Shown here in pieces: positions 18,001 through 48,995 of a DNA stretch of 64,000 bases. The stretch is taken from positions 1 to 64,000 of the forward strand of contig CASHSZ010000115.1 of the NCBI GenBank assembly GCA_949358305.1. The letters are read 5' to 3'. How positions within the stretch are numbered: position 1 is the first letter of the stretch; the number at the start of each line of letters is the position of its first letter. The notes below the pieces were generated by a model. That model had not been told where the DNA came from. It saw nothing but the letters and a program-made list of their open reading frames with translations, and ran no database searches. The position numbers were made by a program, and so were the translations under genes. The stretch is from Strigamia acuminata (lineage: Eukaryota; Arthropoda; Chilopoda; Geophilomorpha; Linotaeniidae).

Positions 18001-19192
18001 CAAGCAATGATTTGGGAGAATAGACTTTTGATCTCATCATAGTTGACTTAGCACAAACACCACAAGACCAATGTCTCTGAATGTTCAGAAATAGTGTTTA
18101 AACCTTAGTAGAAGGCTCCAATGTAAGTTTTAGAAACATCCAAGCAATCATTTGGGAGAATAGACTTTTGATCTCATCATAGTTGACTTAGCACAAACAC
18201 CACAAGACCAATGTCTCTGAATGTTCAGAAATAGTGTTTAAACCTTAGTAGAAGGCTCCAATGTAAGTTTTAGAAACATCCAAGCAATGATTTGGGAGAA
18301 TAGACTTTTGATCTCATCACAGTTGACTTAGCACAAACAGCACAAGACCAATGTCTCTGAATGTTCAGAAATAGTGTTTAAACCTTAGTAGAAGGCTCCA
18401 ATGTAAGTTTTAGAAACATCCAAGCAATGATTTGGGAGAATAGACTTTTGATCTCATCACAGTTGACTTAGCACAAACACCACAAGACCAATGTCTCTGA
18501 ATATTCAGAAATAGTGTTTAAACCTTAGTAGAAGGCTCCAATGTAAGTTTTAGCAACATCCAAGCAAAAAATTTTGAAACAAAAATTTTGAGCTCATTTC
18601 ACATCGCAGTTGACTTAGCACAAAGACCACAAGATCAATGTCTCTGAATGTTCAGAAATAGTGTTTAAACTTTAGTAGAAGGCTCCAATGTAAGTTTTAG
18701 AAACATCCAAGCAATGATTTGGGAGAATAGACTTTTGATCTCATCATAGTTGACTTAGCACAAACACCACAAGACCAATGTCTCTGAATGTTCAGAAATA
18801 GTGTTTAAACCTTAGTAGAAGGCTCCAATGTAAGTTTTAGAAACATCCAAGCAATCATTTGGGAGAATAGACTTTTGATCTCATCATAGTTGACTTAGCA
18901 CAAACACCACAAGACCAATGTCTCTGAATGTTCAGAAATAGTGTTTAAACCTTAGTAGAAGGCTCCAATGTAAGTTTTAGAAACATCCAAGCAATGATTT
19001 GGGAGAATAGACTTTTGATCTCATCACAGTTGACTTAGCACAAACAGCACAAGACCAATGTCTCTGAATGTTCAGAAATAGTGTTTAAACCTTAGTAGAA
19101 GGCTCCAATGTAAGTTTTAGAAACATCCAAGCAATGATTTGGGAGAATAGACTTTTGATCTCATCACAGTTGACTTAGCACAAACACCACAA
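1..19192 (+). repeat. Tandem satellite array, 140/147-bp monomers, higher-order structure
   Basis: Head-to-tail AT-rich repeats, roughly 136 units, with no gene. The common monomer is 140 bp (starts at 1, 141, 281). A longer form is 147 bp (281-427) and carries an A-rich tract in place of the segment around GATTTGGGAGAATAGAC. A third form has GACTTCAAG and GCGAGAAT variants. Every unit carries GTTTAAAC. Variants recur in order: the rare AAACAGCAAAAGACC variant lies at 951, 3212, 6733 and 11115, spaced 2261, 3521 and 4382 bp, all sums of 140- and 147-bp units. That is a higher-order repeat with block-length changes. Unit length is close to nucleosome spacing, so a centromeric or pericentromeric role is plausible but not shown. 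It is not a CRISPR array: there are no unique spacers. Confidence 0.97.
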
Positions 19193-20764
19193 TGTTGCGA
19201 GCAAGAACGCAACAAAAAGATCTGGAGATTTCACGTTGTTTATTTTCTGAAAGAGAGAAAAGGCTTTATAATTTTGTTGTCAAGTTTGAATAGATTTGCA
19301 ACTCTTATCTGACATGTCCAGTTGGTTTGCTGCCTTGTTGTCACGATCCTGGAAGTTCAAGGGGGTTGTCACTTCGCTTGCCACACCTGGAATGTTTGGA
19401 GGTTGTGTTTTTAGTCTTTTGGCATTGTTTTATGTGTCTTTTTCACTTGTTTGTGTTATTTCTAGTATTTATAAGTTTTCTCCTGTTTCCAGTTCACTTG
19501 TGAGAGAGATAGGCGTGCATCGGCAAGATGGCCGCCATAGCATAAGTGAGCTGGGAAACAGGAGAACTTGAAATAAGCACAATTGCAGTTTTAGTGCTTG
19601 TTTCACTGGTAATTTAATTTATACTAACTTGTATTGGTGTTTAAGGTAGTCCACAGGTGTCTTGGGTCGCTGGATGGACGTTGGACATCGTTTGTGAGCG
19701 TTTGCGAGCGTCGGGCGTGAGCGCACGCCTTGCGACGCCTCTCGTGGTCGTATGGGTCCTGCAAATGAGTTGAATCGGTCGGGTTTCAATGTCCAAGCAC
19801 TGGGAAAGTTGTACTGACCGTTCTAGGACGCAGATCCATCGTTGAGAAGGCCTGTGAGTCGCTCGCGACCTTGTCTGGCTCCATTCACGTCATTTTAGCA
19901 GTTGCATGGTCGCCATCTTAGATTTGGTGCTGCACTGGTGCCCTGTCATTGTTTCTTTTGGGGTTTTAATGGAACCTGGACATAGGGAATATTTACTAGT
20001 TATTGTTTGTATATTTACCAATATTAGTTGATGTTAATCTAAGCTTTTACTTTTGTTATTGCATGGTTGTTAAGGGGTTAAAACTGTGACACGTTGCGCC
20101 CTCTTTTGGTGGTGATTGGGTTTGGGCTCAGCATTGTGTTTTGAGTGTAACTAATGTTAGTTTTAGCCTTTGAATTATTTGTTAAGTTTAAGTGAAGTGC
20201 TGTTTGCACAGGTCATACTGTTATCAAGGTGTTAGGTTAAGTTTTGTCTTTATTTATGTTAAGTTTGACATCTGTTGTAGATATACGGAAACCTTGTCGG
20301 CACTATTGTTATTATTCAAATCTGTATTGTTTGGTCACTGACATTTATTGTAATCAGGTGACCAGTTGTTAAGAGTAGGTTGCTAAAGAAGCAACAGTTG
20401 TTATCAGTTGTTAAGTATTAAAACCAGTTGTGATTTTTCCTCCTTCTTTGGATAATTTATTCCTGGGTTTCTTTTACTTCAACATTCATGATGACTTGTG
20501 AGTAGAGAGCTTTGCCTGCTCTCCTCCTCCCTGGGAGCACGGAATTTCTACCCAGCAGCTAAAGAGGTTTTGCCAATCACTTCATCTAAATGCAGTCAGG
20601 CCTAGTTTCATGCAGTCAGGCCTAACCCTTCTTCAAGTTAGGCTTATGCTCAGAGAGAGGATTTCAACTTGTCTCTTCAACCACTATACAGTCTCGGGCG
20701 GTTTCCAGAGTTTGGTGACCAATTCGCCAGTTTTTTCCTGTGAGATCCAAGGTTGTTTGCTACA
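19193..20764 (+). repeat. Element A 5' LTR
   Basis: 1572 bp, TG...CA ends, matching 26827-28398. The first 22 bp form an inverted repeat, TGTTGCG-N8-CGCAACA. Inside are AGTTTGAATAG (19283-19293) and CTTATCTGACA (19304-19314), both also found in the LTR of element F. GCCAT-type motifs lie at 19525-19538 (AAGATGGCCGCCAT) and 19911-19917. An ATTAAA (20417-20422) followed by a T-rich stretch is the likely poly(A) signal. A 91-codon ORF at 19296-19571 is carried identically in both LTRs and has no recognisable product. Confidence 0.95.
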
Positions 20765-20773
20765 GGGAGCTGT

Positions 20774-20798
20774 TTTTTGGTACCGTGATTCCAGGATT
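20774..20798 (+). other. Putative primer-binding site of element A
   Basis: Ten bases after the LTR lies TTTTTGG-TACCGTGATTCCAGGATT. All five elements carry a version of GGTNCCGTGACCAGGATT just after their 5' LTR, the place where the minus-strand primer tRNA pairs. It loosely resembles the complement of a eukaryotic tRNA-Arg 3' end, but small insertions and deletions between elements make the tRNA identity uncertain. Confidence 0.55.
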
Positions 20799-20972
20799 TC
20801 ATGCGCGTGTGTGAAAAAGAGGTCATTCGGACGTTCAGCAAGTGATTCAAGTGGTTTGGTGCGTGCCAGTTGGTTTGTTTGTACGGCTGGTTCCGTGAGC
20901 GACCGGCATCAAGTGCGCACGCCAGAGAGTCACGTGAGAGCGGCCATTGACGTCCTGAGTCTGCCAAGTCAA

Positions 20973-20985
20973 ACACAACGCAATG
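20973..20985 (+). promoter_or_regulatory. Shared leader motif ACACAACGCAATG (element A)
   Basis: An exact 13-base motif found once in the 5' leader of elements A, E, F and G; its first 9 bases occur in H. Surrounding leader sequence does not align. Role unknown; RNA packaging or dimerisation is one possibility. Confidence 0.6.
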
Positions 20986-21134
20986 TGCAAGTTGAACCGC
21001 TACAGCCTGAAAGAAGAAGAACAGTTTTAGTTTATAAAGTGTATTTTGGTGGGCTGTTTTTTGGGTTTTTTGATGTGTCCCTTCTGGGGGGAGGGGAAGT
21101 GTGCATTTTCGTGTTTAAGTTAAAGTTTAAGTTT

Positions 21135-21166
21135 TTCTCCACTATAACTGCTTAGGCAGGGGAGAA
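21135..21166 (+). promoter_or_regulatory. Predicted leader RNA hairpin (element A)
   Basis: Outer stem TTCTCC (21135-21140) with GGAGAA (21161-21166) and inner stem CTGC (21148-21151) with GCAG (21156-21159), loop TTAG. Homologous hairpins occur in H (54177-54207) and G (45935-45963); the inner stem changes CTGC/GCAG to CCGC/GCGG in H, a compensatory change. Confidence 0.5.
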
Positions 21167-21497
21167 TTTAGATAGCCTAGTAGTTAAAAGAGTCTGCTTG
21201 ACAGCTTAGAGTTTTTGGGTGTTGCATCACTCAAATCCTTAGGAGTTTAGAGAGTTTAGCAGTTAACAGGAATTAGTCTACTATAGGAATTAGAGACTGG
21301 GTGTTGCGCCACTCAGATCTTTAGTAGCATAGAGTTTACAGTGAGTCTGTCTGTATATCATTCAGATCACTAGCGGTTTAGTTGAGCAGTTAGTGTATTT
21401 GGTCATTGTTTGTCCAAATATCGCCTGTGTTTAGAGTTGTGTGTCTTTGGTTTTTGACTGACTGATTGTCTTCACTTTCTGCCATTCCAGGTTTGAC

Positions 21498-24400
21498 ATG
21501 GCTACAGGAGGTGGATCAAGGTCAGGTTCAGGGAGAACAACGCCAACAACGGTTGAGCAACAACCGCCGGAAGAAATGGACGTGTTGTCTGGGAGGTTCA
21601 CGACTTTGGGGATCTCTTTGGACGCGCTTTTGAGAAGGTCCTTGACACTAAAAGATACCGGCGAGCTGGAAGCTGTAGAAATGGCTGCAGATGAACAGAT
21701 GATGAGAATGATAAACGACCTGAACACGATGCAGCCCAACCTGACAAGAGATCAGTACTTGGCAAATCTAAGGGAAATCGAAGAGTTAGAGACACCGATT
21801 TCGGTTCTTAAGCACAGAACCCGAATGTCAAAGAAGTTCGTGACGCATTGGTCAGCAAATCCCGCAAATGCTTCAGCGTTGACGACCAGTACGTCTCAGA
21901 GTTCGATTTTGAACCAGACCTTGTCGCAATCGACAAGAAGGCATAATAATGCAAAGCTTCCTAAGTTGGAAATGCGGAAATTCAATGGAGATGTGACGAC
22001 ATTTCGTCCCTTCCTAAGCAGCTTTGATTCTGCTGTTCACAGCAACCCTGATTTATCAGAAATTGAGAAGTTGCAATACTTGCAGTCGCTGTGCACGGGA
22101 GAAGCTGCCATGCTGATCTCTGCATTCCCTTTAGTGGACGGTAATTACAATTTGGCAAGAGAAGAGTTGGAACGTTCCTACGGGGACGATGAAGCCCAGA
22201 GAGTGGCATTGGTCAAGTCCATAAGGGATATGAGACAGGTTACGGAATTGCATCCGGTCAAAGCTGTCCGTACACAGTTGACCAAGGTGTCCACTGCTAT
22301 CCGCTTGCTGGAGCAGTTGAGCGTTCCAGTACAGACTGCTGGTCTGCTTCTGGCACCCGACGTGCTGAGGAAATTTCCACCTGCCATGGTGATGAGGTTT
22401 TACCAGCAGCAAGGGGCTAAGACCTCAAATTTAGTGACAATCTTGAATTTTTTTGCGGCTGAAGTTCAGCTCTTGGAGCAGATGGAAGATGTCATGGGGG
22501 CAGGAGGTCTTGCAACTAAAAAAGACAAGTCTGGAAGTTCCGACAAGGATAAGGATCAACGCAAGGGCACGATGTCCACCTGCGCCACGTCCAAAAAAGC
22601 CAAAGAGTCTTTTAGCCCAAAGCTGACCGTGGGAAGCGCAATTTGCATTTTTTGCAAAGAAGGTCATGCTAACACTTTCTGTAGGAAGGAAATGAGCGTG
22701 GCAGAGAAGACCACGATCATTCAACAGAACCGACTTTGCTTCAATTGCCTGCAAGAAGGACACAGGGCAATGCGGTGCCAGGTTAAAACCAGCTGCAGGA
22801 CTTGCGGCGGACGACATCATTCGTCCATCTGCAGGAAATTGAACACAGGAAGTGGAGGTGGGATAGAGAAGCCCAAGGACGTGAGCGCGAACGTTTCCTT
22901 GGCGATCTCCTCAACACTTCAGTTGATGATATTCACAGCGGAGTTAAAAACAAAGTCTGGAGGTTCGCACACGATACGTGGCATGTTAGATCCGGGCAGC
23001 CATCGGTCCTACATTTTAAAGAGTGTAGCCGACCGGATACGGTTGAAGAGTTGCGGGTCAATCGAAGCCACAGCCCAACGCCTCAATGAAGAGGATAATG
23101 CTGGATCGACGTCTTACGACGTTTACAAGCTACTCCTTCAGTCTAGACACGGAGCCAGAGAGCTCAAGGTGACGGCTTTAAGTGCAAGAAGCCTACCGCA
23201 TGTGTATGGGATAGCCAGCCCTGATACCATTCAGAAAGTTAAAGATTTGGGGTTCGAATTGGCTGAGGACTTACCTTCGACTGCAGGCAATGTTGATATC
23301 TTGCTTGGAGTTGATGTTTGGTGGGAAATCTGCCTTGACGGACGAAAGCGATTGGATAACCGCTTGGGTTTGGTCAATACCATTTTTGGGTGGGTGTTGT
23401 CAGGAGCCGCTGGGTCGACAGATGTCTTCTCCGAGAGCTCGCGTGACGTTTCTTGCTGCAACACCTGTGAGATTAAGACTGACCGTGACTTGGAAAAGCT
23501 TTGGAGTTTGGAGGCTGTTGGAATTACCGCTGGCGAACGCGATTCAGATTTTGTTCGAGATCGCTTTGAGAAGTCGCACAAGCGAATGGATGATGGTTGC
23601 TACCAAGTTTGTTTGCCCTTTAACGATAAGATCGGGGCTTTGGAGTCGAACTGGGAGTTGGCTCTGAATCAACTATCACATACGCTTAGGCGAATTGATA
23701 GTAACAGCGACCACAAGGAACGTTATAACAAAGCCATGTGGGACTACGTCAAGGAAGAGCACGCGGAAGTAGTACCTCTTGCAGAGAGATACAAGAAAAC
23801 TGGAGTTTATGTTATTCCGCACCATCCAGTGATCAAGGAGGACCGGGAAACGACCAAGTTCCGTGTCGTTTTCAACGCGTCGTCGGCGAAGAAGGGGCTA
23901 CCTTCGCTGAACGACTGTCTGTATCCTGGCCCTTCTTTAAATCCGGATATTGTCCCAGTTATGATCCGTTTTCGCCTTTTTTGTGTAGTGGCGATAGCAG
24001 ACATCAAGCAGGCTTTCCTGCAAGTGCTGATTAATCCTGACCACTGCGATTTTTTGCGGTTCCTTTGGGTCTCAGAAGAATATTTCCAAGAAGGATATTC
24101 GTGGCAGAATTTGTGGGATCACCTGGTCGTTTTAAGAATGATAGTCGTCCCTTTCGGGGTGAATTCTTCGCCATTCTTGTTGTGCGCTGTCATCCGCGCG
24201 CAAGGGCGATTGTATTTGGTGCTTTTCCCCAAAGAGGCAGACGCCCTCGATAAGGGCATCTACATGGACGACTTGACGTCCGGGGCCGATGGAACCCAAG
24301 AGACAGTTACGCACTGTGTCAATCTACGCAGGATCCTTGACGAGGGAAAGATGCCTCTCGTCAAGTGGGCATCATCAAAGGCAGATGTCTTTGACGCACT

Positions 24401-26774
24401 CAAAGACAAGGATTTCCACATGCGTGCAGACAAGTTTGAAGATCTAGGAGTTGTCAAGATGCTGGGCATCCTTTGGAGCGTCCAAGATGACACGCTAATG
24501 TTCAGGATCCCAACCGGTGTTGAGATTCCCCAGTCAAGGAGGGGCATTCTGTCATTATTGGCATCAGTCTTCGACCCCTTGGGGTTGATAGCTCCAGTCA
24601 TTTTGCGGATGAAGCTACTTTTACAGAGTATGTGGGGTCGCGACATCAAATGGGATGACATAATCTCAGAAGAAAACCGAGAGATAGTGGTCAAATGGTA
24701 CGCCGATCTTCAGCGCCTCACCGAAGCCCGGGTGAAGCGTTGGATGGGGACGTACTCGGGCCAAGAAATGGACATTGACGTCTTTTGCGACGCAAGTCCA
24801 CAGGCGTACGGGTGCGCAATCTACGTTCGAGCTGCGTCAGGCGCGACCCAACTGCTCTTGAGCAAAAGCCGAATTGCCCCCACCACCAAATTGACTTTGC
24901 CACGCCTAGAATTGACCGCAACTGTTGTTGGAGTCCGGATGGTGGAGTACATCCTAGAGGATTTCCTACCAGGTTATCCAGTTGGGAAGATAAGGTATTA
25001 CTCGGACTCAATGGTTGCGCTCGGGTGGTTGAAGTCTGATAAGAACAGGTGGAAGCCATATGTCTCCAACAGAGTGGCAGAAGTTCTTGAAAAGTCAAGT
25101 CCGAGTCAGTGGGCATACGTCCCGACGGACAGGAATCCAGCGGACGTATTGACACGCCCATGCGAGGCAAAGAACCTTTTGGCCAACCGTCTCTGGTGGG
25201 ACGGGCCCGGTCAGTTGGAAGACCTCGCGGACGAACCTGAGGACGTTGACCTCCCAATGGAAGAGGCAAAAAAGGAAAAGGTAGCTTTGGTTGCGTCAGA
25301 TGGAGAAGCGCATATGTGCGAGGTTTTCAAGCGATTTAGTAGTTTTAATCGCCTCGTGCGAGTTTTCGCGCTCATGCGGCGCTGGCTTCCTTTTTTCGCC
25401 CGCGGGAGGGACCTCGAGGTTCTCGAGATAGAAGTTGCCGAAGAAAGAGTCATCCGCTTGGCCCAGGTCTTGAGTTTTCCAGACGAAAGACAAGCCGCAA
25501 TGTTGAAAGAGAAAGTGGCAAAGGGCTCTATCCTGAAAAATTTCGACGTTTTTCTGGATGAGAGAGATTTACTAAGACTAAGGAGCCGTCTAGGGAAGTC
25601 AGCGCTTCCCTTCGACGAGGCATTTCCCATCATTTTGCACCCGGATAGTTGGGTAACAAGACTAATCATCAAGAAGGTCCACTTACAGCTCCTGCATGGT
25701 GAGCTGAGTGAGACGTTTTACCGGTTGAGAGACAAGTATTGGATTGTAAGAGGACGCCGAACGGTCAAGGCTGTGATCCGGAGTTGCTTGGTCTGCAAAC
25801 GAGAGCGGTTGGAACGCAATAACCCAGCCACTGGTGACCCTCCTATGGAGCGCGTCACGCCGGCAGCCCCGTTCCAGCATACAGGAATTGACCACCTCGG
25901 CCCTCTCACAGTCAAGCATAAGGAGAAAGGAAGAAAAGTCTATATTCTGTTGTTTACCTGCCTAGTAACACGAGCGATCCATTTGGAAGTCTCTGAGAAC
26001 CTTTCGGTGGAAAAGTTCCTTCTGGCCTTCCGTCGTTTCGGCGCCAGATTTGGGTACCCGGCGAAAGTGTTCTCCGACAACTCCAAAACTTTCGAGCGAG
26101 GAAGCCAGGAGATACAGTCGTGGGGTAAATTGCTGACCAAGGATGGGATCCGGACGTTCCTTTCGGAGAAGAGAGTGGTTTGGTCGTTCATCCCACCATT
26201 GTCACCTTGGGCTGGAGGAGCCTGGGAGAGACTTGTGCGTTCGGTGAAAGATAAACTACGTAAGATGCTGCTGCGTAGGACTGTAGACTTGGAGACGCTT
26301 CAGACGCTAGCCGTCGAGATAAGCTCCGTGCTTAACTCAAGGCCCCTGTCTTACGTGCATGAGGAGGTTGACGGCGGGAGAATTCTCAGCCCTGAGAACT
26401 TTCTCACTGGAGGAATGCCCAAGTGGGTTATCAACCGTCCACTGCACGCGATACAGAAGAAAGACCTACGGAGATTGGATAGAAAAAGACGACTTTTCGT
26501 TTGGGAGTTCTGGCGGATTTGGCGCGAGAGTTACCTGAAACAGCTAAGAAATTTTCATGAAGTCAAGGGTGACTCCCGTTTCAAGAATCCGGAAGTCGAC
26601 CAGATAGTATTGTTGGAAAAGGTCGGCTGCAATCCGTACTTCTGGCCGCTGGCACGGGTCATCGAAGTCCTACCAGGCGAAGATGGTTTTGTGCGCGTCG
26701 TGAGAGTGGTTACAGCCAATGGAAAGGAATATCGACGCTCGGTCAAACACGTAAGGGCTTTGGAGCTGGACTAG
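21498..26774 (+). CDS. gag-pol: BEL/Pao Gag-Pol polyprotein, intact
   Basis: A 1758-residue polyprotein for capsid formation, maturation, reverse transcription and integration. Visible domains in order: Gag (about 30-330, with the LPKLEMRKFNGD region near 153); three CCHC zinc knuckles (C383/C386/H390/C395, C414/C417/H422/C427, C433/C436/C445); an aspartic protease with DPGSHRSY at 498-505; reverse transcriptase with ADIKQAF (D835) and YMDD (922-925); RNase H with D1098, E1138, D1170 and D1216; integrase with an HHCC zinc site (H1395, H1400, C1430, C1433) and DDE residues D1465, D1527 and E1577; and the BEL-type C-terminal integrase extension (about 1640-1757). Length is normal for the family and no catalytic residue is missing. 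The protease triad reads DPG, not the usual DSG or DTG. The ATG at 21498 is the first after a likely 3' splice site and matches the start of relatives. It is more GC-rich than its homologue in H, with which it shares about two thirds of residues in pol by eye. Confidence 0.96.
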   Translation: MATGGGSRSGSGRTTPTTVEQQPPEEMDVLSGRFTTLGISLDALLRRSLTLKDTGELEAVEMAADEQMMRMINDLNTMQPNLTRDQYLANLREIEELETPISVLKHRTRMSKKFVTHWSANPANASALTTSTSQSSILNQTLSQSTRRHNNAKLPKLEMRKFNGDVTTFRPFLSSFDSAVHSNPDLSEIEKLQYLQSLCTGEAAMLISAFPLVDGNYNLAREELERSYGDDEAQRVALVKSIRDMRQVTELHPVKAVRTQLTKVSTAIRLLEQLSVPVQTAGLLLAPDVLRKFPPAMVMRFYQQQGAKTSNLVTILNFFAAEVQLLEQMEDVMGAGGLATKKDKSGSSDKDKDQRKGTMSTCATSKKAKESFSPKLTVGSAICIFCKEGHANTFCRKEMSVAEKTTIIQQNRLCFNCLQEGHRAMRCQVKTSCRTCGGRHHSSICRKLNTGSGGGIEKPKDVSANVSLAISSTLQLMIFTAELKTKSGGSHTIRGMLDPGSHRSYILKSVADRIRLKSCGSIEATAQRLNEEDNAGSTSYDVYKLLLQSRHGARELKVTALSARSLPHVYGIASPDTIQKVKDLGFELAEDLPSTAGNVDILLGVDVWWEICLDGRKRLDNRLGLVNTIFGWVLSGAAGSTDVFSESSRDVSCCNTCEIKTDRDLEKLWSLEAVGITAGERDSDFVRDRFEKSHKRMDDGCYQVCLPFNDKIGALESNWELALNQLSHTLRRIDSNSDHKERYNKAMWDYVKEEHAEVVPLAERYKKTGVYVIPHHPVIKEDRETTKFRVVFNASSAKKGLPSLNDCLYPGPSLNPDIVPVMIRFRLFCVVAIADIKQAFLQVLINPDHCDFLRFLWVSEEYFQEGYSWQNLWDHLVVLRMIVVPFGVNSSPFLLCAVIRAQGRLYLVLFPKEADALDKGIYMDDLTSGADGTQETVTHCVNLRRILDEGKMPLVKWASSKADVFDALKDKDFHMRADKFEDLGVVKMLGILWSVQDDTLMFRIPTGVEIPQSRRGILSLLASVFDPLGLIAPVILRMKLLLQSMWGRDIKWDDIISEENREIVVKWYADLQRLTEARVKRWMGTYSGQEMDIDVFCDASPQAYGCAIYVRAASGATQLLLSKSRIAPTTKLTLPRLELTATVVGVRMVEYILEDFLPGYPVGKIRYYSDSMVALGWLKSDKNRWKPYVSNRVAEVLEKSSPSQWAYVPTDRNPADVLTRPCEAKNLLANRLWWDGPGQLEDLADEPEDVDLPMEEAKKEKVALVASDGEAHMCEVFKRFSSFNRLVRVFALMRRWLPFFARGRDLEVLEIEVAEERVIRLAQVLSFPDERQAAMLKEKVAKGSILKNFDVFLDERDLLRLRSRLGKSALPFDEAFPIILHPDSWVTRLIIKKVHLQLLHGELSETFYRLRDKYWIVRGRRTVKAVIRSCLVCKRERLERNNPATGDPPMERVTPAAPFQHTGIDHLGPLTVKHKEKGRKVYILLFTCLVTRAIHLEVSENLSVEKFLLAFRRFGARFGYPAKVFSDNSKTFERGSQEIQSWGKLLTKDGIRTFLSEKRVVWSFIPPLSPWAGGAWERLVRSVKDKLRKMLLRRTVDLETLQTLAVEISSVLNSRPLSYVHEEVDGGRILSPENFLTGGMPKWVINRPLHAIQKKDLRRLDRKRRLFVWEFWRIWRESYLKQLRNFHEVKGDSRFKNPEVDQIVLLEKVGCNPYFWPLARVIEVLPGEDGFVRVVRVVTANGKEYRRSVKHVRALELD

Positions 26775-26804
26775 CGTGGTCGAGTCGCTTAGGCCGGCTG
26801 TCCG

Positions 26805-26826
26805 CTTCTTTTTCGGCTGGCAGCGA
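26805..26826 (+). promoter_or_regulatory. 3' terminal motif before the LTR (element A)
   Basis: CTTCTTTTTCGGCTGGCAGCG directly abuts the 3' LTR, where a polypurine tract for plus-strand priming is expected. The coding strand here is pyrimidine-rich, followed by a GGC-rich end. Comparable sequence precedes the 3' LTR of all five elements. Confidence 0.5.
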
Positions 26827-28398
26827 TGTTGCGAGCAAGAACGCAACAAAAAGATCTGGAGATTTCACGTTGTTTATTTTCTGAAAGAGAGAAAAGGCTT
26901 TATAATTTTGTTGTCAAGTTTGAATAGATTTGCAACTCTTATCTGACATGTCCAGTTGGTTTGCTGCCTTGTTGTCACGATCCTGGAAGTTCAAGGGGGT
27001 TGTCACTTCGCTTGCCACACCTGGAATGTTTGGAGGTTGTGTTTTTAGTCTTTTGGCATTGTTTTATGTGTCTTTTTCACTTGTTTGTGTTATTTCTAGT
27101 ATTTATAAGTTTTCTCCTGTTTCCAGTTCACTTGTGAGAGAGATAGGCGTGCATCGGCAAGATGGCCGCCATAGCATAAGTGAGCTGGGAAACAGGAGAA
27201 CTTGAAATAAGCACAATTGCAGTTTTAGTGCTTGTTTCACTGGTAATTTAATTTATACTAACTTGTATTGGTGTTTAAGGTAGTCCACAGGTGTCTTGGG
27301 TCGCTGGATGGACGTTGGACATCGTTTGTGAGCGTTTGCGAGCGTCGGGCGTGAGCGCACGCCTTGCGACGCCTCTCGTGGTCGTATGGGTCCTGCAAAT
27401 GAGTTGAATCGGTCGGGTTTCAATGTCCAAGCACTGGGAAAGTTGTACTGACCGTTCTAGGACGCAGATCCATCGTTGAGAAGGCCTGTGAGTCGCTCGC
27501 GACCTTGTCTGGCTCCATTCACGTCATTTTAGCAGTTGCATGGTCGCCATCTTAGATTTGGTGCTGCACTGGTGCCCTGTCATTGTTTCTTTTGGGGTTT
27601 TAATGGAACCTGGACATAGGGAATATTTACTAGTTATTGTTTGTATATTTACCAATATTAGTTGATGTTAATCTAAGCTTTTACTTTTGTTATTGCATGG
27701 TTGTTAAGGGGTTAAAACTGTGACACGTTGCGCCCTCTTTTGGTGGTGATTGGGTTTGGGCTCAGCATTGTGTTTTGAGTGTAACTAATGTTAGTTTTAG
27801 CCTTTGAATTATTTGTTAAGTTTAAGTGAAGTGCTGTTTGCACAGGTCATACTGTTATCAAGGTGTTAGGTTAAGTTTTGTCTTTATTTATGTTAAGTTT
27901 GACATCTGTTGTAGATATACGGAAACCTTGTCGGCACTATTGTTATTATTCAAATCTGTATTGTTTGGTCACTGACATTTATTGTAATCAGGTGACCAGT
28001 TGTTAAGAGTAGGTTGCTAAAGAAGCAACAGTTGTTATCAGTTGTTAAGTATTAAAACCAGTTGTGATTTTTCCTCCTTCTTTGGATAATTTATTCCTGG
28101 GTTTCTTTTACTTCAACATTCATGATGACTTGTGAGTAGAGAGCTTTGCCTGCTCTCCTCCTCCCTGGGAGCACGGAATTTCTACCCAGCAGCTAAAGAG
28201 GTTTTGCCAATCACTTCATCTAAATGCAGTCAGGCCTAGTTTCATGCAGTCAGGCCTAACCCTTCTTCAAGTTAGGCTTATGCTCAGAGAGAGGATTTCA
28301 ACTTGTCTCTTCAACCACTATACAGTCTCGGGCGGTTTCCAGAGTTTGGTGACCAATTCGCCAGTTTTTTCCTGTGAGATCCAAGGTTGTTTGCTACA
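26827..28398 (+). repeat. Element A 3' LTR
   Basis: 1572 bp, same sequence by eye as 19193-20764, ending GCTACA and followed by the ACAA target duplication. The terminal inverted repeat TGTTGCG-N8-CGCAACA is at 26827-26848. Confidence 0.95.
28051..28056 (+). terminator. Candidate poly(A) signal, element A
   Basis: ATTAAA followed about 10 bases later by a T-rich stretch. The same arrangement (A-A/T-TAAA, a short gap, then T-rich sequence) is found 200-350 bp before the end of the LTR in all five families. Confidence 0.4.
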
Positions 28399-28909: not shown

Positions 28910-30267
28910 TGTTTCTGGCAAGGTCGCAGGCGACAACCAGGCCAGAAGGAGGGGCGGCAATACTTGACTGCTGCTTGGCTAAAATTGATACACAGAAGTT
29001 GGCCAAAGACTTGAAGAAATGCAAACACTGGAATTGAACTTGCTGCTTCACCTGTTGATCTGCCACTGGTGAGTTCAAGGAGGAGGAAGGAGGATTTTTC
29101 TACTCACTGCACATTGCTTTCTGGTTGTATAGAGAAATGAGACTTGGAGAGAAATAAAAAGCAACCATTTTATTCTCTAAATTCTTAACAAGACTACTAC
29201 AATTGAATCACGAGGATTTTACAAAGAAGTCACACTTTAACAATAATAAGAAACAACAAGTGTAACTATCTCCACATTGTATAAGGACACTTGCACTTAA
29301 AGTTACAGAGGTCTCTAAGTGCTTGTAAAGAGAAATAAGTACTGCTGGCACAACAAAACTACCGTAGAAGTTAATAGTTGAAAACACATAAGCCTAACAG
29401 CAAGTATTTGACATTAAATGCAAAAGTATACATTAACAACAGTCTCTAAACACAATGCTCATTGAGAACTAAATTATTCACTCTAAAACACACTGAACAA
29501 CTCATAAAATAGAGAAAAGAATAAGTAAAGACATTTTAGACCAATGAGCTGGCAACTTTACAGTAAGTGCAGAAGTTAAGTTATAAATCAACACAGATAA
29601 ATCTTAAACTTAACACTTTTACATTGCATAATAATTAAGTGATTAATTATTAATCAGAACCCACAAAAACTCTTTGGGATTAAACATTTTCTCCTCTCTT
29701 TACAGATACAAGTAGACCACTCCCACAGTAATGGCCGACAATGTAAACAGAGATCACTTGCAGGAAGATAGAAAGGCTTGAAATTAGCTCACTAGACAGG
29801 CTACACACAATCTAAGTTAACAAAACGCTTAATTGGTTAGTAATATACAGAAAACAAACAGAAATTGATTGAAACAGCTTAAAACTGATAATAACATACA
29901 TTTCTCATTCTAGTACCCTTTTGCTGTCTGAGAGCATCATTACACCTTGTCACTACATTGACAATAGTGGACTGGAAACAGGAAAACACTTGGAAACATC
30001 AAAACATGCATAACACAGGTAAACAAGATAGAAAATAAATTCTAAGTGGATAAATAACTAATGTAAAAACTCTTTTCTTCCCAGATTTATCCGGTCAGAT
30101 CAACCAGTACTGAGAAATTCACTCAAACTAACTCAAAGAAGACTTATATTCAAATAAGTGTCTAATTAAATTCCCAATCTAAGATAAATATTAAAAACCC
30201 TTTTTAATAATTCCAGATGACTAATTTTTAAGACGTTTAGCAGCTTTCCTTTATGTTGCTAGCAACA
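28910..30267 (-). repeat. Element E 3' LTR
   Basis: 1358 bp; read on the minus strand it starts TGTTGCTAGCAACA (30254-30267), a perfect 14-bp palindrome shared with element G, and ends GCCAGAAACA. A candidate poly(A) signal AATAAA lies at 29169-29174 on the minus strand, followed by a T-rich stretch. Confidence 0.94.
29169..29174 (-). terminator. Candidate poly(A) signal, element E
   Basis: AATAAA on the minus strand, followed by TTTTTATTT about 10 bases downstream; aligned in position with the poly(A) blocks of the other LTRs. Confidence 0.4.
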
Positions 30268-30302: not shown

Positions 30303-33300
30303 TCATTTAGTTTGATTACTTCTGGTCTTTGATGATAATATTTGGGAGACCTCTTTCACCTTTTTGTATTCCACTCTGGGTGGCATGATTCTTTGACGGA
30401 TCAAATTTGGTATCCACGGAGGTATTCTTCGGTTGACAATCATACAACTAAGTCGAATAATTCCGTTGATGATTTTCCTTTTCGTCTCTAGGGACTTCAT
30501 GGGCTTTGAGAAACATACTCGACAGGTTGGTTTGTATTTGTCGATCCCTCCTATCATCTTGACTCTGGTTTCGTGCGAAATTCGTCTTGAAAATTCAGCT
30601 TTATCTCCGCAAAAATAACATTTTGCTTGTAGTTTCACAACAGACTCGGCTAGTGGAACTAACTTGGATATCTGATCAAATGGCTTCCTCTTGAAGTCGA
30701 CGTCTAATGCGGCGACTATTACCTTTTTCTTTTGCTCAGACATTTCATTTGAAAAAGTAAAAATGTCGGGAAAAAACTGTCCTTCGTCAATTCCGATTGT
30801 CTTCACTAATTTCGTTTTTTCCACAGCATTGGTTAGGCTACTGGTCGCGATTGCTTCTCGTCGATGACCGTCGTGGGTCACGACTTCGGTTTTACTGTAA
30901 CGATCGTCATTGGAGTGTTTAATTAGCAGGGACGACGTCTTCTCTTCCTTTTCTAAAAGCTTCAATAACTTGGTCGTTTTCCCCGCATACATTGGACCAA
31001 TGATGAGATGAATTCCCTTTTGATTGGTTGACAAATCAATTTTCTTTTTCCAGAAATTCAGAATCACGTTTCCACTCCATCTCACGATTGCACACAATTT
31101 GGGTAAACTGGGCACTTGGTTTGTAAGTAATTCGACGTTCTTTCTCCCTGACTCTAACTGATTTCGCCCTCGTAATTCCGGCTTCATGTCCGAGCTTGGA
31201 GTTCTGTTGACCAATCCTCCATCCTTGAACGACTTTTTCGTTTTTTGGAGGGTGGTGTCCAGTTCCTCTTTCTCCAGACCACTGGAGAGGCTCGCGGCAA
31301 AACAAGAAGGTGTGACGTCTGTCTGTTTATTCACACCGGGTTCGCCATTCATGTTGGGCAGTGATTTCGGAATTAATTGGACTATTTTGTTTTCGTCATT
31401 TTCAGGTTGATTTGAGATCACTTCTTCTTTGGACTCGACCGCCATGCAAGAAATGTTGCACGCTGCCATGTTTTCTTCAAGCGGGTTGTTTGGTTTCAGT
31501 CGACCGTTTAGAATCCACCCAAAAATTGTCTCCATTAATCCCAACTCGTCGTTGATTTTTCGGCTTCCACCTTGACAAATCTTCCACCATGCGTTGCTTC
31601 CTAATAAGACGTCAATGTCTTCCGATTCTGACGGATGTATCTCAGCCATCTCAAGTCCGAGTGATTGGACTTGCTTTATGGCTTCTGCTCCAATTATCCC
31701 TTTGACTTTCGGGAGTGTGTCGGTTTCTAATGCAAGGATTGATGTCTTTTTTGTTCCGTGTCTTGATTGTAGTTCGAATCTAAAGACATCATGTGTCGTC
31801 GGAACTGGCTTTTTGTTGAGCAGACACTGTGTCATCGTGTGTAGTGTCTCGATCTTTTGCATCCGGAATTTATTTACTAGTCTCTTCGTGACGTAGGAGC
31901 GATGGCTTCCTGGATCTAGTAATCCGCGGACGGGGTACATGTCTCCATTTTTCTTCACAAAAAGAGCAGTGAAGACCATCAGTTGAATCTCCACCGACTC
32001 GGTAAGCGATACATTAGTAGACACGTTTTCTTCTTTTGGTGTAATCGCTTTTTCTTTGTTGTTTTTGTTGCAGATCGATGTGTGATGTCTTCCACCACAC
32101 AAGCGACAACAAAACTTCACGGTACATTCTTTGGCTGTGTGGTTATATCTCAAGCAGTTGAAACAAAGTCGTTTCTTCTTCACTATTTCGATCCTCGCCG
32201 GTACATCGAGATCCGCATCACAATTTGCGTGTGCGTGATCACCATCACAATAAGCGCAGGCGGGTTTGCGGTTTGGATTTGACTTGGAATTCATACTCAA
32301 TTTTCCATTCTCGGAAGTCACGAATGAGGACATGGTTCCAGTTGGTCTTTCTCTTGTTTCCTTTGAAGTTTTCTCAAATTTTTCTGACTTCTTCAGATGA
32401 GCGCGCTTAAGGAGAACGCTTTCTTCCGACAATTCAGCCAGTTGTATCTCGGTTGCTACGAAGTCCAGAAAAACGTTAACATCATCAACTTTTCCTTGAT
32501 GCTTTCGGTAAAAACGTTGGGAGATCTCCGGTGGAAATTTTCTAAGTAGTTCTGGAATAAGGTACGTTCCAGTAGTGTCAACTGACACAGACAGTTGCGC
32601 CATGGTCCGGACAGCAGATGCCAATGACGTGAATAGAGCTTTAAGTGGCTCGATTGGGTAGAGATCGAAAACGGGTTTCGACTCCCTAATCATCTTTGAA
32701 ATCGCATTTCTCTGCGTGTTTTCAGATCCGAATAGACTCTCCAATGTATTTTTCGCTAATGGGTAGGCGTCATCAGTTATTGGGTACGACTTGATTGCGG
32801 ATTCTGCAGCCCCAGTGCAGCATGACCTCAGATATATAAGCTTTTCCACGTTCGAAAGCTCCGTGTTCTGATCAACTGCTGATTCGAATAAATTCGCAAA
32901 GCCTCTATATTCAGTTGCATCGCCACTAAATTTGGCAATGTCGGTTTTCGGCAATCTCGTGTTTCTCCTAGATGAAGCGGACGTCTGGTTTAAACTGGAA
33001 TTCTGTCCCGGATGGGAACCAAATTGCCCTGCCATTTTTCCAGACACTTTTGCTCTTTGCTTCAATAAATTTACTCTGGTTCTAATGTCTTCAATTCGTT
33101 GAAGCCCCGCTAAATAGTCCTCTCTTTTTGACTCGTCTTTAAGAGCTTTCAATTCGTCGGCGAGATCACTCAATTGCTGGTCAACCGTTATTTGCATGGC
33201 TTCCAGCTCTCCTCCGTCTAGAATGTTGACTGAAGATCCCAGCAGATCCTCGGCTCCTTGAGCCTTTGCTTTCCAAATGACCTCCTTTTCCTCGAGATCA

Positions 33301-33320
33301 GCAGCGGATAATGTAGCCAT
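30303..33320 (-). CDS. Gag-protease-thymidine kinase fusion polyprotein
   Basis: 1005 residues from the ATG at 33320. Gag is about 10-310; three CCHC knuckles follow (C355/C358/H362/C367, C386/C389/H394/C399, C405/C408/C417), then a protease with DPGSHRSY at 469-476. Where A has reverse transcriptase there is a variable linker (about 600-765) and then a type II (TK1-like) thymidine kinase, about 768-940. It has P-loop GPMYAGKTT (775-783), HDG (816-818), DEGQFF (845-850) with the family's catalytic Glu, AALDVDFKRKPF (870-881), and two CxxC pairs (C901/C904, C933/C936) matching the zinc-binding lasso. All signature motifs are present, so activity is plausible: thymidine + ATP to dTMP. A basic tail (RRIPPWIPNLIRQRI, 964-978) is shared with G. 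No RT or integrase is encoded. An in-frame GTG three codons upstream is less likely as the start. A kinase released or packaged with Gag could raise dTTP for reverse transcription; that is inference. Confidence 0.93.
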   Translation of the reverse strand: MATLSAADLEEKEVIWKAKAQGAEDLLGSSVNILDGGELEAMQITVDQQLSDLADELKALKDESKREDYLAGLQRIEDIRTRVNLLKQRAKVSGKMAGQFGSHPGQNSSLNQTSASSRRNTRLPKTDIAKFSGDATEYRGFANLFESAVDQNTELSNVEKLIYLRSCCTGAAESAIKSYPITDDAYPLAKNTLESLFGSENTQRNAISKMIRESKPVFDLYPIEPLKALFTSLASAVRTMAQLSVSVDTTGTYLIPELLRKFPPEISQRFYRKHQGKVDDVNVFLDFVATEIQLAELSEESVLLKRAHLKKSEKFEKTSKETRERPTGTMSSFVTSENGKLSMNSKSNPNRKPACAYCDGDHAHANCDADLDVPARIEIVKKKRLCFNCLRYNHTAKECTVKFCCRLCGGRHHTSICNKNNKEKAITPKEENVSTNVSLTESVEIQLMVFTALFVKKNGDMYPVRGLLDPGSHRSYVTKRLVNKFRMQKIETLHTMTQCLLNKKPVPTTHDVFRFELQSRHGTKKTSILALETDTLPKVKGIIGAEAIKQVQSLGLEMAEIHPSESEDIDVLLGSNAWWKICQGGSRKINDELGLMETIFGWILNGRLKPNNPLEENMAACNISCMAVESKEEVISNQPENDENKIVQLIPKSLPNMNGEPGVNKQTDVTPSCFAASLSSGLEKEELDTTLQKTKKSFKDGGLVNRTPSSDMKPELRGRNQLESGRKNVELLTNQVPSLPKLCAIVRWSGNVILNFWKKKIDLSTNQKGIHLIIGPMYAGKTTKLLKLLEKEEKTSSLLIKHSNDDRYSKTEVVTHDGHRREAIATSSLTNAVEKTKLVKTIGIDEGQFFPDIFTFSNEMSEQKKKVIVAALDVDFKRKPFDQISKLVPLAESVVKLQAKCYFCGDKAEFSRRISHETRVKMIGGIDKYKPTCRVCFSKPMKSLETKRKIINGIIRLSCMIVNRRIPPWIPNLIRQRIMPPRVEYKKVKEVSQILSSKTRSNQTK

Positions 33321-34034
33321 AATCCTCACCGAGAAATGAAGAATTCAAAGGTCAGTTCAGGATTCAAACTCAACTTAACTGACTAAATTGGTTAACAAGA
33401 AATTGTCTAATTCTTTTACACTCTAGGATTTACTGAACACACAAAAACAGGATGGATATCCACAAGCTGTTAACAGGATTGAAACACACGGGATGTTAAA
33501 AGGATTGGCAAATTAACCCCCAAAATTCAATAATTAAAGGTAATTGACAATTCTCTTATTTTCACAATTGAGTTTCTGACTAGATACTCGTTTTAAATTG
33601 GGATACCAACACTAAAGCTTGGTATTATTCACTAATTCACTGGATATTCTCTAAATTCCACAAACTGGAATCGAGAATTTATTCAAACTGTTAAGACTTA
33701 AACTTCTTCTCCCCCCAACTACACCAGTTTCTAATCAAAAACTCCTTTGAAATGATTACAGCAGCAAATTCGGATATTATTCTATTTAAATAATAATTCT
33801 TAATAATTATTTCTTCAAATCTTCTTGTAGGATGTACATTGCGTTGTGTTTGGAATTGATTGTCGTGCAGGATCGCTCGTACTCTCGAAGCCTTGCTTGA
33901 TCCAAGTTGAAAAACCTCTTGACCATCTTGGCAATTTGAGAATCCAACTTGAAAAACCCACTTTTTTGCCTGTGAAAGGCTGACGAGAGCATACACTTCA
34001 CTGTAGTGGCACAGCTTCAATGGCACTTTACACA
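33321..34034 (-). other. Element E leader, gag-proximal part
   Basis: About 700 bp of non-coding leader between gag and the F insertion. On the minus strand it carries ACACAACGCAATG (33838-33850) and a G-run (GGGGGGAGAAG) near 33710. Short ORFs at 33691-34035 and 33807-34001 have no recognisable domain. The 5-bp F target duplication ACACA is at 34030-34034. Confidence 0.6.
33838..33850 (-). promoter_or_regulatory. Shared leader motif ACACAACGCAATG (element E)
   Basis: Exact match on the minus strand to the 13-base motif in A, F and G. The ATG at its end opens an 11-codon reading frame that closes before gag. Confidence 0.6.
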
Positions 34035-42793: not shown

Positions 42794-42904
42794 ACACATA
42801 TAAGCTTTGCACAGCTTGAGAACAAAACCCACTGATGAATTTTGCAGCACACATGAAAATCCACTGAGATAACTGGAAGAAATCCTTGGTTCACGGCACC
42901 AAAT
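42794..42904 (-). other. Element E leader, LTR-proximal part with primer-site-like segment
   Basis: The start of E's interior, cut from the rest of the leader by F. On the minus strand, directly after the LTR, it reads ATTTGGTGCCGTGAACCAAG then GATT (42881-42904), E's version of the shared segment. ACACA at 42794-42798 is the F target duplication. No gene. Confidence 0.65.
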
Positions 42905-43766
42905 TGTTTCTGGCAAGGTCGCAGGCGACAACCAGGCCAGAAGGAGGGGCGGCAATACTTGACTGCTGCTTGGCTAAAATTGATACACAGAAGTTGGCCA
43001 AAGACTTGAAGAAATGCAAACACTGGAATTGAACTTGCTGCTTCACCTGTTGATCTGCCACTGGTGAGTTCAAGGAGGAGGAAGGAGGATTTTTCTACTC
43101 ACTGCACATTGCTTTCTGGTTGTATAGAGAAATGAGACTTGGAGAGAAATAAAAAGCAACCATTTTATTCTCTAAATTCTTAACAAGACTACTACAATTG
43201 AATCACGAGGATTTTACAAAGAAGTCACACTTTAACAATAATAAGAAACAACAAGTGTAACTATCTCCACATTGTATAAGGACACTTGCACTTAAAGTTA
43301 CAGAGGTCTCTAAGTGCTTGTAAAGAGAAATAAGTACTGCTGGCACAACAAAACTACCGTAGAAGTTAATAGTTGAAAACACATAAGCCTAACAGCAAGT
43401 ATTTGACATTAAATGCAAAAGTATACATTAACAACAGTCTCTAAACACAATGCTCATTGAGAACTAAATTATTCACTCTAAAACACACTGAACAACTCAT
43501 AAAATAGAGAAAAGAATAAGTAAAGACATTTTAGACCAATGAGCTGGCAACTTTACAGTAAGTGCAGAAGTTAAGTTATAAATCAACACAGATAAATCTT
43601 AAACTTAACACTTTTACATTGCATAATAATTAAGTGATTAATTATTAATCAGAACCCACAAAAACTCTTTGGGATTAAACATTTTCTCCTCTCTTTACAG
43701 ATACAAGTAGACCACTCCCACAGTAATGGCCGACAATGTAAACAGAGATCACTTGCAGGAAGATAG
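42905..43766 (-). repeat. Element E 5' LTR, 3' portion
   Basis: 862 bp matching 28910-29771 by eye, broken by element G after GGAAGATAG. The last four bases, ATAG (43763-43766), are duplicated on the other side of G. Confidence 0.93.
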
Positions 43767-45231
43767 TGTTGCTAGCAACAAATGGAGTTGTCAAAACGTT
43801 TACCGGCTAGGAAGAAAATCTATACATGTGGCAATTTCCTGGAAATACAGACAAAACGTTTTTAATAATATTCTTGTGTGTTTGAGTTCGAATTTGTCAA
43901 TTATCTGAATATTTCCCCGTATAAAAGCGTTTGCCATGTGAATTAATTATCTGAAATGTCAAAATATTGCTTTGTAAGTTTTTGTTGTCACTTATTAACG
44001 TTTTGTGCAAATTTTACCTGTTTCTTGAGTGTTATCTATTTCCAGTTCATTAGTGTAAGCAGTCCGACAAGCTGGATGCATCTCGCTCAATTCAAATGTG
44101 GACTGGAAGAGATCTAACTGTTATTATTAATGTTTAAATGCATTCAGTGCATTTTATCAGTTTATTAGCAATTTTCCTACCTTGTTTAATGTCCTGTGTG
44201 TCTATTGTGCGCATGTGAGTTCAACACCGCTCGTTTCAGGTGTGAAAACGTCCAAAATGCGTGTAAATGATCGCCTCCTATGCGTGTCCGCCTCTGGACA
44301 GCTGGTAGAAATGTTCCAGGTCCTGTCACGGATTAAAAACCACCTATATTAGTTGTTTGTATGCCTATTAATTAATTTGTTACCTTAAAATGCCTCTCAC
44401 TTGTCCTGGAAGTTTATTTGGGTTGCTTTTGTGCTCATATGAGCAATCTCTCTCTCCTTGTCCGCCATTGCTGTGGGCGTGGCTTAAGTGTTTCTGTAAA
44501 GATGTATTTAAAATTACCTTTTTGTGGGTTTTATGAGGTATTTGTGAGTAATTGGGCATTTGTGTATTTAGCAATGTAATAGTCTTAAGTTTTATTGCAT
44601 GATGATAATGCTTTCTGATGTAAATACTGCACTCACTGTAGAGCTGCAATTTGATTGGTAGAAAACCTCTATATTTATTCTTTTTCTTGTGTTTCATGAA
44701 TATTTACTAGGATTTAATGCATTTCTAATGGGTTCTTGAATATAGCATCTAAAGATTGATTGTAAAACTGATTTATTACATTTAATGTAGGTTTTCAGTT
44801 GTTAGGCTTAAGCAAATGTACTTGATGCCCTGTACGGTAGTCTATTTGTATCAGATGGTTTATTTCCTCCCTTTTTTAGGGACCTAAGGCTTCCTTACTT
44901 TCAAGTGCATATGTCCTTATACAATGCTTATGTGATTGCACTTGTTATAGTTTATTGTTTTAAGTGTAACTGCTTTGTTTCTGCTCTCGCGCTGCATTGT
45001 ATCTGTGTTATTCATGTTTTCAATGATATTAAACGATGTTTATTTTTACTCCCGTGGATTTTATTAACAGAATGAGTGAGGAGTAAAAACACCTTGTTTC
45101 CTCCAAAGTACCTGCTGTTCTGGATGCCTGACAGATGGACATTGAATCTTCAAAAGCCACTATACAAAAATCAGCGGTCAAAAGGAAGGTCCTTAGTTTC
45201 ATAATTGGCCCAACCCAGGCCAGTTGCAACA
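43767..45231 (+). repeat. Element G 5' LTR
   Basis: 1465 bp starting with the palindrome TGTTGCTAGCAACA and ending AGTTGCAACA, so the outer 6 bases are also inverted repeats. It contains TATAAAAG at 43920-43927, and ATTAAA (45028-45033) followed by TTTATTTTT. Confidence 0.94.
43920..43927 (+). promoter_or_regulatory. Candidate TATA box in element G LTR
   Basis: TATAAAAG 154 bases into the LTR, repeated at 49149-49156 in the 3' LTR. The best TATA match in any of the five LTRs; transcription start not determinable here. Confidence 0.4.
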
Positions 45232-45668
45232 TTTTTGGTCCCAGTGACCAGGATTACGCGAATTCGAGTCTGTGCCAGGTTTATTGTGTGATTTATGATT
45301 TGCTCTCATTTCAAGTGTCAAGCACCAGTGCTTTTTGTATGCGTGTCGTCCGTGCGCCGTTGTACGCCTGTATTTCCGGTCAGTTGCGGTCACGTATCTT
45401 GTGAGAGTGCCAAAAGGTGTGTTTCAAGTGCATCAGGTGTGTCCAGCTGCTTAGCGCCGTCTGTCTTCAAGTGCGCACTTGAGTTTGTGCCAAGTGACAG
45501 TGAGCCGTGCAGTGAATTCGCCTGTTTGGAGCAAATCGTCCTTTTCCCGTTTTGTGTCGTCGTGACAGTGGATCTCCTTCGAGTGGACAACGTCCTCAGT
45601 GTGGAGTTCAAGCCGCAGCGCACCACTGGTCGCGGATGTTCCTGGCTGTCAACTAGTCGTCAATCATC

Positions 45669-45681
45669 ACACAACGCAATG
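45669..45681 (+). promoter_or_regulatory. Shared leader motif ACACAACGCAATG (element G)
   Basis: Exact match to A, E and F, about 440 bp after the LTR. Confidence 0.6.
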
Positions 45682-45934
45682 CGATGTCCATCTGAAACGA
45701 AGATTTATATTTATAATTTTGTCTCAAATAAATTGTATATAATCTTCTTAAGTATATGTCCAGCATTCAGTCAGGTCTTTGGGGGAAAACAAATCGTTTA
45801 TTTAGCAAAGTCTTATTCAAGTGATCAGTTTTGGTCTAATAAGAAAAGATTTTCGAGAATAATTCAGTTAGGAGTGTTTTGTTTGCAATTTGGTTGTTAA
45901 ACCTACAATTGAATCTGGGCAAATACTCAAGTTC

Positions 45935-45963
45935 GCTCGCCATTACTGCATTAGGCAGAGAGC
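45935..45963 (+). promoter_or_regulatory. Predicted leader RNA hairpin (element G)
   Basis: Outer GCTC (45935-45938) pairs GAGC (45960-45963); inner CTGC (45946-45949) pairs GCAG (45955-45958), loop ATTAG. Similar in sequence and layout to the hairpins of A and H. Confidence 0.45.
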
Positions 45964-48962: not shown

Positions 48963-48968
48963 GATGTC

Positions 48969-48995
48969 GGTTTCTTTCTTTCGGCCGGCAATCTT
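48969..48995 (+). promoter_or_regulatory. 3' terminal motif before the LTR (element G)
   Basis: GTTTCTTTCTTTCGGCCGGC then AATCTT, abutting the 3' LTR; near-identical to E's end. Confidence 0.5.

Follow-up and report, generated by a model that had tools for sequence, protein, structure and literature searches.

Background

Several enzymes are known to have been captured by long terminal repeat (LTR) retrotransposons, namely dUTPase, exonuclease, esterase and demethylase. Plant TR-GAG elements are non-autonomous LTR elements that encode Gag only and are mobilised in trans, and in Gag-oncogene retroviruses and maize Bs1 a host coding sequence was fused to Gag and pol was lost. This study concerns a 64,000-bp stretch of the genome of the centipede Strigamia acuminata (positions 1 to 64,000 of contig CASHSZ010000115.1, assembly GCA_949358305.1; hereafter the window), in which an LTR retrotransposon of the BEL/Pao type (presumably Belpaoviridae in current naming), designated E2, encodes a Gag-protease (Gag-PR) polyprotein with a type II thymidine kinase (TK) near its C-terminus. 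The nearest published parallels carry dUTPase, which was captured by the bdelloid LTR retrotransposons Juno, Vesta and TelKA (PMC5408684) and is present in the fungal LTR element PosPlaTy3 (PMC2864245); the latter report also cites a proposal that dUTPase enables viral replication in non-dividing cells. Gypsy elements of Phalaenopsis carry an AlkB-type RNA demethylase, the domain being active in vitro (PMC9289625). No retrotransposon thymidine kinase was found in the literature searched, in which subscription papers were few and bioRxiv preprints absent.

Organisation of the Gag-TK element

The window consists of a 140-bp satellite interrupted by five LTR elements, E1 to E5. E2 is a young, recently transposed LTR element, its LTRs showing no difference over 1358 bp, with the target-site duplication (TSD) AAGC and the 140-bp satellite as insertion site. 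E3 lies within the E2 leader and E4 within its 5' LTR, so both were inserted later than E2 (Table 1). The frame has its stop codon at 30303-30305 and its first ATG (MATLS) at 33320; the open reading frame listing gives 30303-33329, starting at an upstream GTG (1008 residues), and the residue numbers of the Pfam scan follow this longer count. The scan placed the TK family PF00265 at residues 773-940 of 1008 (E 9.6e-54), and the motifs GPMYAGKTT, DEGQFF, AALDVDFKRKPF, CYFC and CRVC are all present.

A preliminary description, made from the letters alone, had reported an open frame with Gag, three Cys/His boxes, a DPGS protease and the marks of a TK1-like enzyme. This frame is real, with all the quoted motifs in place on the minus strand, and the type II identity is borne out by the Pfam match and by protein searches, whose best matches are thymidine kinases. 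The description had not remarked that pol is absent from the element, that two nested insertions split it, or that its copies are many.

E2 has the DUF1759 Gag, Cys/His boxes, aspartic protease, LTRs, short TSD and sites resembling a primer-binding site (PBS) and a polypurine tract (PPT) of a BEL/Pao element, and its Gag-PR part is 36-38% identical to those of E1 and E5. The PBS-like site is, we assume, complementary to the 3' end of tRNA-His. The reverse transcriptase (RT), RNase H and integrase of an autonomous member were not found: the corresponding regions of E1 and E5 had no match in the searched parts of E2, where no second long frame occurs, and the leader portion 33330-34034 had no match to BEL proteins. 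Linker, TK and a short tail occupy the place where pol begins in an autonomous relative; the frame ends after them and the LTR starts 35 bp on. In having Gag, lacking pol and having transposed recently, E2 shares the features of Gag-only non-autonomous elements.

The same plan of LTR, leader, Gag-PR-TK frame and LTR is found unsplit in a second family. Its copy L025 comprises an LTR (366-1323), leader, frame (2494-5481), 93 bp and a second LTR (5575-6532), the LTRs differing at one position in 958 bp, with the TSD CAAC; copy L026 has 715-bp LTRs without difference and the TSD TTTG. At locus L028, two Gag-TK units stand head to tail, identical over 4485 bp and 4967 bp apart.

Table 1. Features of E2 and of the other LTR elements in the window.
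Feature	Position	Strand	Basis
E2 single open frame, Gag-protease-linker-TK-tail, 1005 amino acids (aa) from first ATG	30303..33320	-	sequence and domain search
DUF1759, the BEL/Pao Gag domain	32505..32930	-	Pfam, E 2e-17
Zinc-knuckle-like Cys/His boxes (three)	32031..32258	-	sequence
Protease active-site stretch LLDPGSHRSY	31893..31922	-	sequence
Protease-TK linker, fast evolving	31017..31400	-	25% identity, family A vs C
Type II thymidine kinase domain: P-loop, DEGQFF, two CxxC pairs	30510..31016	-	Pfam, structure match, alignment
C-terminal tail beyond TK, partly retained in E4	30306..30509	-	sequence comparison
E2 3' LTR, 1358 bp	28910..30267	-	LTR-pair comparison
E2 5' LTR, first part, identical to 3' LTR; E4 inserted in this LTR	42905..43766	-	LTR-pair comparison
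E2 5' LTR, remainder beyond E4, identical to 3' LTR; then TSD AAGC and satellite	50465..50960	-	LTR-pair comparison
Stop codon-to-3' LTR gap, 35 bases, with PPT-like TTTCTTTT-CGCCGGCAATC stretch resembling E1, E3, E4 and L025	30268..30302	-	sequence
PBS-like TGGTGCCGTGAACCAAGGAT just inside 5' LTR	42882..42901	-	sequence
E2 5' leader, main part (rest 42794-42904, beyond E3)	33321..34033	-	sequence
E1, BEL element, apparently autonomous; identical LTRs of 1573 bp; Gag-Pol frame 21462-26774 (1770 aa)	19192..28398	+	LTRs and domain scan
E3, LTR element in E2 leader; LTRs 1748 bp, identical; TSD about ACACA; longest frame 241 aa	34034..42793	+	
E4, sister element in E2 5' LTR; LTRs 1465 bp, identical; TSD ATAG; Gag-PR frame 46284-48962 with TK relic	43767..50460	+	
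E4 TK relic, GPMFLGKKEKLLELL..., DEGQFF part gone	48573..48858	+	sequence comparison
E5, BEL Gag-Pol element; LTRs 97% alike; frame broken by one in-frame stop codon	52153..61524	+	

Copies in the genome

In the 237-Mb genome, 144 of 245 candidate TK matches were scored, and the counts, made by hand, are lower bounds. At least 84 of the matches scored are full Gag-PR-TK frames of 995-1013 aa (at least 34 of 1013 aa, 13 of 1009 aa, 32 of 995 aa and five of 1002 aa). One more frame, of 991 aa, has an altered end, and the other 59 comprise truncated or disrupted Gag-TK copies together with stand-alone TKs. The full frames fall into two families, the Gags of which are 55% alike. The codon pattern of DEGQFF occurs 175 times in the genome, against once for the pattern read backwards.

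The full frames are spread over six long contigs (C1, C5, C8, C9, C11 and C13), C4 and many short contigs, with most clustered at 64-67 Mb of C1, 12-15.5 of C5, 6.8-7.6 of C8, 0.3-0.7 of C9, 0.1-0.6 of C11 and 7.9-10.3 of C13, and on short contigs. The 140-bp satellite adjoins 10 of the 20 Gag-TK loci that have at least 1.5 kb of flank, the window's own copy (L001) being one of the ten. This crowding into few regions, together with the adjoining satellite, suggests that the regions rich in Gag-TK are centromeric or similar DNA. Old broken relics (L040 and L041) lie outside the clustered regions.

The preliminary description had allowed for a fusion peculiar to this assembly, and every copy does come from it. 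A chimera of assembly or a contamination is nevertheless a negligible explanation, and a chimera is rejected for practical purposes by the recurrence of the fusion in at least 84 full frames on the contigs named above; TSDs and LTR pairs in all three fully inspected copies (window, L025 and L026) and the satellite beside half of the loci with enough flank point the same way.

The kinase domain

The closest solved structure by sequence is human TK1 (E 2.2e-42). An AlphaFold model of the E2 TK had a mean predicted local distance difference test (pLDDT) score of 79.5, with the core mostly above 90 and the ends below 50. A Foldseek search with this model placed a Leishmania TK best by E-value and human TK1 (1xbt) next, the latter with a template modelling (TM) score of 0.95 by target length and a root-mean-square deviation of 1.2-1.3 Å. 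In a comparison with 31 other TK1 proteins of our choosing, the E2 TK retained 37 of the 42 invariant columns, with F>Y, E>K, R>K, R>K and A>S at the remaining five. Family profile, P-loop, catalytic DE, CxxC pairs, lasso and fold are thus those of a TK1-like enzyme, and the E2 TK seemingly is complete, with the marks of a working enzyme, as judged from alignment and model. The Asp-Glu pair, P-loop, lasso Tyr and four zinc cysteines are retained in the window, in all seven further family A loci, in two of the three subfamily B loci and in most of the family C loci examined.

Selection on the kinase

Between the window and family C, identity amounts to 55% in Gag, 60% from the knuckles to the protease, 25% in the linker, 57% in TK and 50% in the tail. 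Silent sites of TK are saturated in this comparison (pS 0.77), with pN at 0.28 (p 2.5e-20). Over 169 TK codons, the window compared with L037, L038 and L039 of subfamily B gave dN/dS values of 0.18, 0.21 and 0.17 (Fisher p 8e-4, 2e-3 and 3e-4, respectively), and L025 compared with L026 gave 0.23 (p 0.02); the linker reached 0.5-0.6. These substitution patterns show purifying selection on the TK codons between families, the TK evolving like Gag and unlike the adjoining linker. The captured enzyme domain is thus retained under purifying selection across the divergent families, although this selection is undetectable within subfamilies and E4 has lost the catalytic part of the domain.

Origin of the kinase and stand-alone TKs

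Phylogenetic analysis relied on a tree of 46 rows, ten from this genome and 36 chosen by us among 203 database proteins. Earlier quick trees had 64 rows and 80 rows, the latter including three viral ones; P0086, P0085, P0106 and P0002 were dropped before the 80-row tree, which was poorly searched, a constrained tree scoring 22.6 above the free one, and the viral rows were then removed. In the 46-row tree, the four Gag-TKs form one clade (support 96/92), nested in a clade of all ten TKs of this genome (99/98) apart from the 36 database TKs, with long branches. The Gag-TKs may join the stand-alone S190/S271 TKs before S221 does or after it, the two orders not being distinguished (p-AU 0.195). 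No close relative emerged, the best identity among the 120 proteins listed being 51% for the E2 TK (Timema) and 53% for the stand-alone S221 TK.

Since the Gag-TKs form one clade, a single capture is likely, and capture from the lineage's own stock of TKs would be the simplest reading of the tree. Its neighbours in the tree are stand-alone TKs carried by other repeats of this genome, which means that the TK may have been acquired directly from a repeat rather than from an ordinary host gene. The captured TK1-type kinase fused to a BEL Gag-protease that the preliminary description proposed stands, with its direct cellular source in doubt. A protein search limited to the size of Gag-TK, made for fused relatives elsewhere, gave three matches, none named as a Gag fusion. 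A viral donor found no support in the TKs at eight IMG/VR loci, which are only 30-36% identical, though a poxvirus-type TK, a kind absent from the trees, could still be the source. A TK-bearing autonomous BEL ancestor was rejected, as the one long frame read past its protease, of 2105 aa, leads straight into RT without a TK; the sites of other long BEL frames gave no TK match among the matches listed.

Stand-alone intronless TK frames of three types reside in other large dispersed repeats: one of 190 aa (L018-L021 and L024; at least 40 rows in the genome listing), one of 221-239 aa (L014-L016) and one of 216-269 aa and longer, some with N (L009-L013, L017, L022 and L023). The repeat of the 190-aa type is a mosaic in which TK is the sole recognised gene, alike over more than 8 kb between the two loci examined at length, of which about 1.8 kb is inverted. 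For an ordinary spliced host TK1, profile, pattern and protein searches, which were not exhaustive, showed only repeat-borne TKs among the matches listed; they covered 100 of the 175 pattern places, with 150 of 205 candidates scored in one search and 150 of 200 in another. Four further pattern places comprised the two broken relics mentioned above and two that are not TK.

The sister family E4

E4 is 41% identical to E2 over Gag-PR and shares its tail (50%, E 9e-8), but between protease and tail it has retained only a piece around the TK P-loop. A full 892-aa frame of this family is present in 19 of 31 genome matches. Because families A and C and E4 have the tail in common, their common ancestor is suggested to have possessed Gag-PR-TK-tail already, which would make the fusion old. 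The TK seems not to be needed in the E4 family, unless it is supplied by others.

Proposed role and alternative explanations

The demonstrated anatomy of E2, its recent transposition, the many full frames, the retained catalytic and zinc residues and the constraint on TK between families are brought together in one model, which we consider, on balance, probable: E2 would represent a multi-copy, RT-less BEL/Pao lineage with TK in the place of pol that borrows RT and integrase, packages itself and makes thymidine monophosphate (dTMP). The step held with most confidence is that RT and integrase would be supplied in trans by autonomous BEL elements of the same genome, possible helpers being E1 (Gag-Pol of 1770 aa, identical LTRs) and E5 (scanned in its first frame only) in the window and, outside it, frames of 2105, 2043 and 1752 aa. 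Next in confidence, Gag-TK would package its own RNA with cis preference, as Gag and TK are both conserved, making the element half-autonomous and not mere passenger RNA. Least firmly, the TK, whether kept inside the particle or released from Gag by proteolysis, would perform its predicted function of phosphorylating thymidine. It would thereby raise dTMP and, through host kinases, dTTP in settings in which thymidylate would limit cDNA synthesis, namely where reverse transcription takes place or in cells that are not in S phase. A view of the kinase as simply serving the element's own polymerase has to be corrected, since no RT or integrase was found in E2. A separate 897-aa frame (G000:C14:39558-40424), 50% like E2 in the knuckle-protease part, perhaps belongs to another pol-less family.

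A number of observations weigh against the proposed role. All three comparisons with subfamily B include the window row, so they lack independence. Within subfamilies no selection on TK was detected in the pairs compared: w was 0.56 between the window and L003 and 0.86 between L025 and L034 (p 0.5-1), 0.55 between L037 and L039, and 1.15 between L025 and L028, on one silent and four replacement changes. The E2 TK keeps 18 but departs at 14 of the 32 columns with 90% conservation among the 31 TK1s, and two of these departures, the G and T of AALDGTF, presumably lie near the substrate pocket. Single copies have damaged TKs, L038 having GLM for GPM and L027 having lost the second CxxC. The nearest long Gag-Pol-like frames are just 45-47% identical to E2 in the knuckle-protease part, so its helper stays a candidate. 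The E4 family spread without the catalytic part of TK, the window copy having identical LTRs, which means that TK is at most useful and not indispensable. Moreover, dTMP requires two further kinases.

Three other explanations account for some of these points. The TK could serve the cell rather than the particle, freed Gag-TK lifting thymidine salvage in germline or quiescent cells to the profit of other elements. This would suit the intact TK frames of several other repeats, the dN/dS of 0.12 between the stand-alone S190 and S271 TKs, the absence of an ordinary host TK1 from the matches listed in the non-exhaustive searches and the spread of E4 without a working TK; it is nonetheless unlikely, for a freely shared product would leave each element's TK open to decay, and every one of the at least 84 full frames retains the Gag fusion. 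Alternatively, TK might have been kept for a non-enzymatic task, as an ATP- or nucleotide-binding oligomer that aids Gag assembly or binds nucleic acid. TK1 enzymes form tetramers, TK is a fixed C-terminal part of Gag, and E4 retains an N-terminal TK relic and tail although the catalytic part is gone. However, catalytic, P-loop, lasso and zinc residues are kept over families whose Gags are only 55% alike, and an assembly role alone would not require a thymidine site, so that such a task appears quite improbable. Very unlikely, finally, is a passenger TK, caught by chance as pol was lost and carried along by recent bursts: the youth of the copies, their small variation within subfamilies, where selection escapes detection, and the success of E4 after losing its TK fit this explanation, but TK has remained 57% identical past saturation of silent sites, while the adjoining linker was not kept.

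The proposed lineage that makes its own dTMP can be carried further, to a doubtful though possible picture in which Gag-TK particles would act as small workshops for dTMP, taking RT and integrase on loan from relatives and paying in thymidylate. TK would then be traded among elements and might even be the sole TK1 of the host; an intact TK is present in at least four repeat types of this genome.

Other elements and the satellite

At 1-19192, Tandem Repeats Finder reports satellite periods of 140 bp and 567 bp, the latter perhaps a higher-order unit. E1 and E5 start (19192 and 52153) at a near-identical point of the satellite unit (...CACCACAA), where L028 also starts; this hints at a target preference. 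The satellite arrays on the two sides of E5 (50961-52152 and 61519-64000) are oppositely oriented, so E5 marks an inversion or other rearrangement. The interior of E3 had no match to the BEL proteins of the window, and E3 is presumably another non-autonomous element. The telomere repeat TTAGG was found at 18,915 places in the genome, against 21 for the reversed pattern, and C1 begins with TTAGG, a telomere motif that points to an arthropod.

Comparison with known systems

If the TK works, the supply of DNA building blocks would be tied directly to the spread of jumping genes. The intact families (A-D) and the relic family E4 constitute a natural experiment, and the many copies in satellite bear on the life of retroelements in centromere-like DNA.

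E2 resembles BEL/Pao elements such as E1 and E5 in its DUF1759 Gag, boxes, protease, LTRs, PBS- and PPT-like sites and TSD of 4-5 bp, and differs in that TK replaces RT, RNase H and integrase, none of which was found. With TR-GAG it shares LTRs and Gag without pol; to our knowledge, TR-GAG elements carry no enzyme cargo. Gag-oncogene retroviruses and Bs1 are recent single events, whereas the Gag-TK fusion is old, multi-family and constrained. The E2 TK has the fold, P-loop, catalytic Glu, zinc and lasso residues of human TK1 (1xbt) but is fused to Gag, and TK1's own C-terminal part is absent, the element's tail standing instead. The Phalaenopsis elements likewise hold a captured enzyme domain, but are 25-kb Gypsy elements with an additional frame. 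The dUTPase elements come nearest, with a pyrimidine-nucleotide enzyme fixed in the polyprotein; their enzyme is unrelated to TK and stands beside RT in pol, and the elements are not BEL/Pao. The capture of dUTPase points to thymidylate supply as a factor in reverse transcription. A TK retained in an RT-less element would make that link directly testable, and raises the question of whether nucleotide supply, rather than polymerase, is scarce where Gag-TK elements jump.

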